Position numbers and translations under genes: made by a program. From assembly GCA_019347575.1 (NCBI GenBank), contig JAHWKY010000002.1, forward strand, positions 62,001-126,000: a stretch of DNA of 64,000 nucleotides. Reading direction: 5' to 3'. Below the pieces are notes generated by a model, which was not told the origin of the DNA, made no database searches, and worked only from the letters and a program-made list of their open reading frames with translations. This DNA is from Actinomycetota bacterium (GTDB lineage Bacteria > Actinomycetota > Nitriliruptoria > Nitriliruptorales > Nitriliruptoraceae). How positions within the stretch are numbered: position 1 is the stretch's first letter; each line of letters starts with the position of its first letter. Below are positions 3,186 to 62,637 of this stretch, piece by piece.

Positions 3186-3260
3186 GTCGGTCTCAAGTAG
3201 CCCGCAGGGCGGTAGACCAACAAGTCGGTCTCAAGTAGCCCGCAGGGCGGTAGACCAACA
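3186..3260. repeat. Tandem duplication of a 37-bp unit (period 38)
   Basis: Two identical 37-bp copies lie at 3186-3222 and 3224-3260, starting GTCGGTCTCAAGTAGCCCGC and ending GGTAGACCAACA, separated by one base. Each contains the small hairpin GCCC-GCA-GGGC. They fill the gap between the divergent dacB and PP2C genes, so they sit in both upstream regions. Perfect identity suggests a recent duplication. Function unknown. Confidence 0.9.
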
Positions 3261-3298
3261 GAGTCGGGGTAGGTTCCCGCGCGACCGAGGAGGCCACG

Positions 3299-34528: not shown

Positions 34529-34810
34529 CGAGGTCTCTCCGGGTGATCGAGGGGCTAGAAGGCTGTCCAAGGCCACCTTCGACGGCCGGGAGGCCCGTTC
34601 CTGCCCGCGTCCCCGACCCGATGGCCAGGGTCTGCGGCCCGCGCGCTCGCCCGCACCTCGGTTGCTCTGCGTGATGAGTAGGAACACATCGTGAGGATGG
34701 CGAACCCCTGCGCCTGCGTTCCGCCGTCGCCATCGCCGTCTTCGCGCTCCCACCCCGGCGCTGACGGCGCACGCGCGTAGGCTCCGGCACGATCCTGTTC
34801 GGAGGTGATC

Positions 34811-35287
34811 GTGCGCGCCCGCCCCGAGACCCTCGACTTCGTCGATCGCGCCCCTCTCGTGATCACCGCCGAGCGGACGATGCCCCACACGCCTGAGCGC
34901 ATCTTCGGGGCGCTGGCCGACACGCCATCGTGGTCGTCGTGGTGGCCCTCGCTGACGATCGCCGAGTGGACGTCCACCCAGGAAGGCGGGGTCGGTGCCA
35001 CCCGGAGGGTCCGCGTCCGGGGCCTCGAGGTGCACGAGCGGTTCATCGTGTGGGAGCCGCCCCGGCGGTGGGGGTTCACCTTCCTCGAGACGAACGTGCC
35101 GTTCGCCCGTGCCGGGGTGGAACTGGTCGAGCTCGAGCCCAACGACGGCACGACACGGGTCACCTACCGGATGGCGGTCGACCCCCCGGCCCTGCTCGGC
35201 CCGTTGCTGCGCGGGCTCCGGGGGAGCATCCGGGGCGGCATCGAGGACGGCCTCACCGCGCTCGACAGCTACCTGGAACGCTCGTGA
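34811..35287 (+). CDS. SRPBCC (START-like) family protein
   Basis: A 158-residue helix-grip protein: DRAPLVITAERTMPHTPERIF, then the conserved WSSWWPSL, and a C-terminal helix that would close a hydrophobic cavity. Such proteins bind lipids or polyketides; ligand unknown. GTG 34811 has GGAGGT five bases upstream and is preferred to GTG 34805. Its stop overlaps a GTG that opens the first of three tandem 69-nt ORFs leading to the carboxyltransferase gene, so the two genes could be translationally linked through them. Confidence 0.82.
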   Translation: MRARPETLDFVDRAPLVITAERTMPHTPERIFGALADTPSWSSWWPSLTIAEWTSTQEGGVGATRRVRVRGLEVHERFIVWEPPRRWGFTFLETNVPFARAGVELVELEPNDGTTRVTYRMAVDPPALLGPLLRGLRGSIRGGIEDGLTALDSYLERS

Positions 35288-35352
35288 CGGATCGAGCCTC
35301 ACCCCCCAGGCCGGCAACGCCGGCCCCTCCCCCCTCAAGGGGGGAGGCATGA
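35284..35352 (+). CDS. Tandem short ORF a (22 aa) in a 65-bp repeat
   Basis: GTG 35284 overlaps the SRPBCC stop (GTGA). The frame encodes a 22-residue Pro/Ala-rich peptide starting MTDRASPPRPATPAP and ending at TGA 35350-35352, which overlaps the ATG of ORF b. It occupies the first of three near-identical repeat units. Translation is not proven; it may only be a by-product of the repeat. Confidence 0.4.
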   Translation: MTDRASPPRPATPAPPPSRGEA

Positions 35353-35417
35353 CCTATCGAGCCTCACCCCCCAGGCCGGCAACGCCGGCCCCTCCCCCCT
35401 CAAAGGGGAAGGCATGA
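35349..35417 (+). CDS. Tandem short ORF b (22 aa) in a 65-bp repeat
   Basis: ATG 35349 overlaps the stop of ORF a by ATGA. The peptide starts MTYRASPPRPATPAP and ends SKGKA; its TGA (35415-35417) overlaps the ATG of ORF c. GGGGAGG lies only one base before the ATG, which favours termination-reinitiation over independent initiation. Confidence 0.4.
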   Translation: MTYRASPPRPATPAPPPSKGKA

Positions 35418-35482
35418 CCTATCGAGCCTCACCCCCCAGGCCGGCAACGCCGGCCCCTCCCCCCTCAAAGGGGGAGGCATGA
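35414..35482 (+). CDS. Tandem short ORF c (22 aa), coupled to the carboxyltransferase gene
   Basis: ATG 35414 overlaps the ORF b stop; TGA 35480-35482 overlaps the carboxyltransferase ATG 35479, again as ATGA. It differs from ORF b at one residue (Glu for Lys near the end). Its last codons form the 3' arm of a hairpin that contains the G-rich ribosome site of the next gene. Confidence 0.42.
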   Translation: MTYRASPPRPATPAPPPSKGEA

Positions 35483-37287
35483 TCACGGTCACCAGCCCGG
35501 TCGCCGGCACGGTCAGCCACATCGCCGTCTCGGCTGGCGACACCGTTGCCGCAGGGGCGGCGTTGATGCACGTCGAGGTCATGAAGATGGAGCACCGGGT
35601 CGTCGCCCCGGAGGCCGGGCTCGTCGACGACGTGACGGTCGCGGTCGGAGACACCATCGAGGCGGGCGCGCTCCTGGTCACCCTGACCCCCGTCGAGGTC
35701 GAGGTCAACGGTTCGCTCGAGGCGGACACGACGGCGTCGCCGCGACGAGACCTGCAACGTCTCGCCGAACGCAAGGCCCTCCTCGCCGACGACGCGCGCC
35801 CCGATGCGGTGGCGCGCCGGCACGAGCAGGGCCACCGGACCGCGCGCGAGAACGTCGCCGACCTGCTCGACGACGGCAGCTTCCTCGAGTACGGCGGCCT
35901 CGCGGTCGCCGCGCAGCGCAGTCGCCGCCCGCTCGAGGAGCTCCGCGCCGCGACGCCCGCGGACGGGCTCATCACCGGCACGGGAACCGTCAACGCCGAG
36001 CTGTTCGGTGCCCAGCAGGCACGCGTGACCGTCGCGGCCTACGACTACACCGTGCTGGCGGGGACCCAGGGCTACACCAACCACCACAAGAAGGACCGTC
36101 TCTTCCGGCTCGCCCACGACCAGCGCCTCCCGCTCGTCGTCTTCGCGGAGGGTGGTGGTGGCCGCCCCGGCGACACCGACGTCCTGGCCGCGTCCTGGCT
36201 CGACGCCGAGGCGTTCCACCTCTTCGCGAGGTTGTCGGGACACGTGCCGACCGTCGCCATCGTCAACGGACGCTGCTTCGCCGGTAACGCCGCGCTGGCG
36301 GGCTGTGCCGACGTGCTCATCGCGACCGAGGACAGCAACCTCGGGATGGCCGGCCCCGCGATGATCGAGGGCGGCGGGCTCGGCGTCCACGCATCGGAGG
36401 ACATCGGCCCCATCGAGGTGCAACGGACCAACGGCGTGGTGGACGTCGTGGTCGCGGACGAGGCGGAGGCGGTCGCGGAAGCGCGCCGCTACCTCAGCTA
36501 CTTCCAGGGCCACCTCGACGACTGGTCGGAGCACGCACAGCAGCCGCTGCGCACCGCGGTGCCCGAGGACCGCAAGCTGGTCTACGACCCGCGGCCCATC
36601 CTCGACACCGTCGCCGATCCGGGCACGGTGTTCGAGCTCCGCCGCGACTTCGGGCGCGGGATGATCACCGCTCTCGCACGGGTGCGTGGCCGTCCGCTTG
36701 GGATCCTGGCCAACGATCCCAACCACCTCGGCGGTGCCATCGACGCCGATGGTGCCGACAAGGCCGCACGGTTCCTCCAGCTGTGCGACGCGCACGAGCT
36801 CCCGGTCGTCGTGCTGTGCGACACCCCGGGTTTCATGGTCGGCCCGGACGCGGAGCGCGACGCCGGGGTGCGGCGGTTCTCACGGATGTTCGTCGTCGGC
36901 GCGAACCTGCGCGTCCCGCTCGTCGTGATCGTCACCCGCAAGGCCTACGGGCTCGGCGCCCAGGCGATGATGGGCGGTCACCTCGCGGTCCCCGTCCTCA
37001 CCGTCGGATGGCCGACGTCGGAGCTCGGGCCGATGGGTCTCGAAGGGGCGGTGAGGCTCGGCTTCAGGCGGGAGCTTGAAGCCATCGACGACCCGGTCGA
37101 GCGCGAGGAGCGCGAGCGCGAGATGATCGCGCTGGCCTACGCCAACGCTGAGGGCCTCAACGTGGCATCGTTCGCCGAGATCGACGACGTCATCGATCCC
37201 GCGGATACGCGCGACCACATCGCCGCCGCCCTGTCGACGCCACACCGAGCGCATGCAGGCACCAGGAGGTTCATCGACACCTGGTGA
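35479..37287 (+). CDS. Biotin carboxyl carrier domain fused to acyl-CoA carboxyltransferase
   Basis: Residues 1-72 form a biotinyl domain with the biotinylation site EVMKME (Lys36); residues about 85-602 form both carboxyltransferase halves, with GGGGRPGDTDV, GRCFAGNAALAG, GGGLGVH, LANDPNHLGGAIDADGADKA, DTPGFMVGPDAE and KAYGLGAQAMMGG. It should transfer carboxyl from biotin to an acyl-CoA. BCCP is more often attached to biotin carboxylase, and no biotin carboxylase gene is in the window, so that subunit must come from elsewhere. The ATG sits inside ATGA of ORF c. Substrate unknown. Confidence 0.88.
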   Translation: MITVTSPVAGTVSHIAVSAGDTVAAGAALMHVEVMKMEHRVVAPEAGLVDDVTVAVGDTIEAGALLVTLTPVEVEVNGSLEADTTASPRRDLQRLAERKALLADDARPDAVARRHEQGHRTARENVADLLDDGSFLEYGGLAVAAQRSRRPLEELRAATPADGLITGTGTVNAELFGAQQARVTVAAYDYTVLAGTQGYTNHHKKDRLFRLAHDQRLPLVVFAEGGGGRPGDTDVLAASWLDAEAFHLFARLSGHVPTVAIVNGRCFAGNAALAGCADVLIATEDSNLGMAGPAMIEGGGLGVHASEDIGPIEVQRTNGVVDVVVADEAEAVAEARRYLSYFQGHLDDWSEHAQQPLRTAVPEDRKLVYDPRPILDTVADPGTVFELRRDFGRGMITALARVRGRPLGILANDPNHLGGAIDADGADKAARFLQLCDAHELPVVVLCDTPGFMVGPDAERDAGVRRFSRMFVVGANLRVPLVVIVTRKAYGLGAQAMMGGHLAVPVLTVGWPTSELGPMGLEGAVRLGFRRELEAIDDPVEREEREREMIALAYANAEGLNVASFAEIDDVIDPADTRDHIAAALSTPHRAHAGTRRFIDTW

Positions 37288-62483: not shown

Positions 62484-62495
62484 GGGCGTCCTCCT

Positions 62496-62550
62496 CGTTG
62501 TGCGCTCGTTGTGCGCTCGTTGTGCGCTCGTTGTGCGCTCGTTGTGCGCT
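62496..62550 (+). repeat. Five tandem 11-bp repeats
   Basis: CGTTGTGCGCT occurs five times without gaps (62496, 62507, 62518, 62529, 62540), followed by a partial copy. Read on the minus strand it forms the leader just before the LysM gene's ribosome site. The one-turn period could phase a bound protein, or it may be a slippage-prone microsatellite that varies in copy number. Confidence 0.88.
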
Positions 62551-62637
62551 CGTTGCGCTGCTCTTCGTCCAGCTGCTCGTGCCCCACGGTAGTGAGGGGG
62601 TGTGACACGACTCCGGCGCTGGCCTTCAGGGCTGTCC

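Follow-up and report, generated by a model that had tools for sequence, protein, structure and literature searches.

A dispersed 65-bp two-hairpin repeat at operon start codons, with a probable MIRU-like part in translational coupling

Between an SRPBCC-family gene and a carboxylase gene in the window (the whole 64,000-nt stretch of DNA that was analysed), a 65-bp unit is repeated in tandem and each copy carries a short ORF of its own. Does this repeat relay ribosomes from one gene to the next, and is it peculiar to this locus?

Three-unit array in the window

The original prediction described a triple 65-bp repeat and a chain of overlaps running from the SRPBCC gene through small ORFs a, b and c to the carboxyltransferase gene. 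Both were borne out. Three tandem copies were found at window 35285–35352, 35350–35417 and 35415–35482 with a spacing of 65, the units being 94–96% identical to the first (TRF score 370). The SRPBCC gene, three 22-codon ORFs and the biotin/carboxyltransferase gene form a single relay, with a 4-nt overlap (GTGA or ATGA) at every step. The features are as follows.

34805–35287, + strand: SRPBCC / polyketide-cyclase family gene (Pfam Polyketide_cyc2)
35285–35287, + strand: TGA stop of the SRPBCC gene, sharing GTGA (35284–35287) with the GTG that opens small ORF a
35284–35352, + strand: unit 1, holding small ORF a (22 codons from GTG, then TGA)
35309–35325, + strand: hairpin 1 of unit 1, GGCCGGC-AAC-GCCGGCC, recurring at +65 and +130
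35326–35347, + strand: hairpin 2 of unit 1, CCTCCCCCC-TCAA-GGGGGGAGG, recurring at +65 and +130
35349–35417, + strand: unit 2, holding small ORF b (22 codons from ATG, then TGA)
35414–35482, + strand: unit 3, holding small ORF c (22 codons from ATG, then TGA)
35479–35482, + strand: ATGA overlap of the small ORF c stop and the carboxylase ATG
35479–37287, + strand: final gene of the relay (602 aa; Biotin_lipoyl and Carboxyl_trans domains)

Read from the proposed start, the carboxyltransferase protein has its first Pfam domain from residue 3. Two other repeats were seen in the window: a 38-bp direct repeat of 2.1 copies (3186–3267) and an 11-bp tandem repeat, CTCGTTGTGCG, of 5.6 exact copies (62494–62563).

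Copies and their placement across the genome

The genome from which the window derives (4.89 Mb, 120 contigs, 98.8% complete) was searched with a 24-nt core, allowing up to 3 mismatches. This returned 63 copies, compared with 0 for a reversed control pattern, so the repeat is not a product of chance. All 63 fell inside 40 arrays, with no additional core copies in the genome, and a degenerate copy brings the total to 64 units. Twenty arrays held one unit, 16 held two and 4 held three; these numbers are minima at the four contig ends that interrupt an array (C9, C41, C49 and C61; loci L010, L012, L029 and L039), where the assembly was probably broken by the repeat.

The original prediction had tied its case to where such copies lie. 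Rather than falling without regard to starts and stops, nearly all 40 arrays were in sense orientation and directly at a start codon. The 3′ end of an array reads AGGGGGGAGG-N-(A/G)TGA and, with few exceptions, its ATG or GTG opens the next gene. Pfam domains were detected in 32 of 36 tested downstream proteins, often from residue 2–15, indicating that the gene starts at the element are real in most cases. These included GatB, UPF0047, PrmA, ArsA, NuoJ (Oxidored_q3), UbiA, SDR, MoaE, 3HCDH, AMP-binding, HisC-like aminotransferase, SelA, RecD-like, NuoG, FabF-like, ATP sulfurylase/APS kinase and Asd. Downstream starts at arrays were mostly ATG. In contrast, native RTGA overlaps, collected from 277 kb of the same genome with a simple ORF and codon-composition filter, were GTGA in 34 of 34 cases, and the element therefore seems to supply its own ATG.

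Two arrays did not fit this placement. One is degenerate and lies on contig 11; the other, before a gatC-like gene (a label given from position alone), closes with an ORF of 6 codons, ~50 nt short of a GTG with a GGAGG of its own. The latter region (L009:3164–6940; G000 C1:167163–170939) holds three arrays in 3.8 kb: before the gatC-like gene, just before gatB and after gatB.

Upstream junctions and reading frames

At ~26 arrays the first small ORF starts on the stop of the upstream ORF with a 4-nt overlap (GTGA or ATGA), and at one the stop/start junction is TGATG. A handful occupy a leader position without an overlapping upstream gene. At three arrays the upstream gene reads through the element and terminates at the next ATGA. 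Element-encoded C-terminal tails were seen in NuoF (nuoF-nuoG, L040), where the new tail is ...LISPPRPTTSAPPPSRGKA (PPRPTTSAPPPSRGKA), and in a LysC-like protein before asd (L042:9994–10034), which ends in ...GASGNAGPSPLRGEA (SGNAGPSPLRGEA).

The path from the first start either leads to the start of the gene or shares the gene's frame in nearly all assessable arrays. The translational relay first proposed for the window was supported in part: placement favours it, as most arrays begin on an upstream stop. At five arrays (contigs 8 twice, 13, 26 and 32), the small ORF does not end at the gene but shares its frame. Selection on frame among length variants was not significant (3 of 15 out of frame, P 0.21; one entry, L038, reflected a misassigned start). 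Since the frames through the core differ between loci, the peptide is not the conserved feature.

Each 65-nt unit consists of a ~50-nt two-hairpin core and a variable leader of ~11–15 nt. The core is near-invariant, while the adjoining leader varies freely between loci and is mostly common within an array, which argues that arrays grew by local duplication. At L015:7310–7377 and downstream, the first codons of a UbiA-family gene repeat the leader and 5′ core; to judge by the sequence, it looks as if a truncated second unit had entered the protein.

Distribution and origin

DNA searches (E ≤ 1e-6) gave no match to the element in 34 other genomes of the family, nor in a 66-genome class set beyond its own genome. 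The family search returned two matches of 24–33 nt outside the own genome, both at chance level. No match was found beyond the own genome in a 396-genome phylum sample, whose mycobacterial members are not specified, and an exact 30-mer had none in IMG/VR or GTDB contigs. A search of the 66 class genomes for the architecture itself, an SD-masking hairpin followed by TGA, returned the own genome and two single matches only. In ten relatives from seven other genera, GatB, NuoG, Asd and HisC have ordinary junctions and lack the element; its gain in the present lineage is therefore the most likely origin. No SRPBCC partner was found at the 80 carboxylase loci examined, so the array in the window has no empty-site counterpart among them. 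The genomes searched included no second member of the host genus, and the unit numbers come from one genome.

The element is presumably mobile. At ~5 loci the leader matches the first 12–15 nt of the gene, more commonly than in shuffled pairings (P<0.0002); elsewhere the match is mostly TGAC alone. Such matches are what target duplication would leave, and together with dispersed hairpins in sense orientation they fit an element of REP/MITE type that a RAYT or IS transposase mobilizes and that survives at starts only because copies elsewhere do harm. Random insertion followed by purging, however, predicts ordinary intergenic copies in both orientations, and none were seen. In addition, no Y1/RAYT transposase (Y1_Tnp, PF01797) was found in the own genome, which is 98.8% complete, whereas control genomes were positive. 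We consider this origin distinctly improbable, and the description of the unit as REP-like is not supported in the strict sense; by design it is nearer to MIRUs.

Hairpins and masking of the G-rich site

One unit is predicted to fold into two abutting hairpins, of 7 bp with a 3-nt loop and of 9 bp with a 4-nt loop (−33.7 kcal/mol). The 3′ arm of hairpin 2, GGGGGGAGG, contains the G-rich ribosome site, and the ATG follows one base on, in agreement with the fold originally claimed. Standard pairs made up 96.5% of pair cells over 45 distinct units, and the loops varied. Two compensatory double changes were present, both in hairpin 1 (nuoG and ATP-sulfurylase loci).

Very stable G+C hairpins could also serve as terminators or stabilize RNA, with no translational role. 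A terminator was rejected on the absence of a T-run after the hairpin, where ATGA instead follows one base later. The arrays also lie between co-directed operon genes, and either function is highly improbable.

The element was compared with the 34 native RTGA junctions. The predicted MFE from −40 to +20 was −34.7 kcal/mol at the element and −22.0 at native junctions. Predicted accessibility of the G-rich region was lower at the element (0.21 versus 0.33), but that of the start codon was higher (0.67 versus 0.31). Strict hiding of the ribosome site by the hairpin is therefore not supported, as the start codon is more open than at native junctions; in silico, masking is real yet only partial. 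The gap from GGAGG to ATG is 1 nt only, and a usable Shine-Dalgarno register would require a G-run farther upstream.

A rival reading, that of the original prediction with its tuning of carboxylase synthesis by copy number, takes the element for a selected regulatory device: translation of the upstream ORF would be needed to open the hairpin and release the downstream gene, and the number of units would fix how much downstream protein is made relative to upstream protein. A nearly invariant core beside a freely varying 11-nt leader, the compensatory changes, the stronger fold and the range of 1–3 units between loci would all be consistent with it. There is also a precedent in M. tuberculosis, where longer tandem repeats upstream of fpg1 accompany modestly higher mRNA (PMC2734929). 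However, the downstream genes share no common pathway, relatives manage without the element, and replication slippage could explain copy number. We regard such a device as a tentative possibility.

Proposed mechanism

It is probable, in our assessment, that a lineage-specific dispersed element docks at operon start codons and maintains translational coupling, with a MIRU-like mode of action. Docking sites would mostly be operon junctions where an RTGA overlap of stop and start was already in place. The small ORF of each unit would begin on the upstream stop and end at the ATGA one base past the G-rich stretch. A ribosome arriving from the upstream gene would translate this ORF, opening hairpin 2 as it goes, and initiate anew at the ATGA; the cycle would repeat where there are several units. 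Supplying a new start and keeping coupling in this way may be the reason the element is tolerated at essential genes, and its effect on expression is likely to be near-neutral.

A stronger proposal is that this is an independent MIRU-type family, unrelated in sequence, that targets RTGAC and adds an ATGA and a hairpin-masked ribosome site. Some 40 genes, essential ones included, would then depend strictly on the preceding ORF, with unit number acting as a graded step-down. This version is doubtful.

MIRUs are known chiefly as tuberculosis typing markers, and start-codon docking by them has, to our knowledge, so far been confined to mycobacteria. A further family of different sequence, from a different actinomycete lineage, would point to operon translational coupling as a safe harbour open to small elements in general. 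A near-identical cassette at ~40 unrelated genes, in 1–3 units, also represents a natural series in which to measure re-initiation efficiency.

Comparison with known systems

Other small repeats and leader designs share parts of this arrangement. REP/BIME sequences with RAYT are likewise dispersed, tandem hairpin units, but they lie outside genes, whereas the present element sits at start codons, and no RAYT/Y1 enzyme was found in its genome. Rickettsia palindromic elements (PMC10969869) are small palindromic repeats amid coding sequence, and the in-frame fusions at five arrays resemble them; those elements, however, are protein inserts within ORFs, while the element here is at the start codon and usually outside the protein. 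In synthetic bicistronic designs, a short leader ORF likewise brings the ribosome to a start that it overlaps, so that initiation no longer depends on local structure; the element is natural, dispersed and tandemly repeated in operons.

The closest likeness is to the MIRUs of M. tuberculosis, units of 40–100 bp at 41 loci (PMC2734929), against 65 bp in 40 arrays and 64 units here. PMC12548453, citing Supply 1997, describes a mode of action in mycobacteria by start-codon docking and translational coupling. Both kinds of element are placed at start codons, have an internal ORF with a 4-nt overlap into the downstream gene, and vary in tandem copy number by locus (1–3 here). They differ in that the present host appears to belong to another actinomycete class (probably Nitriliruptoria, judging from a single hit of 62% identity in Nitriliruptoraceae), the G-rich site lies under two abutting GC hairpins, and some copies continue in frame into the gene. 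The element is of a kind known from MIRUs; what sets it apart is its host, a sequence with no match in the genomes searched, and the 9-bp hairpin that covers its G-rich site. We would therefore call it MIRU-like in its apparent way of working, which makes no claim of common descent.
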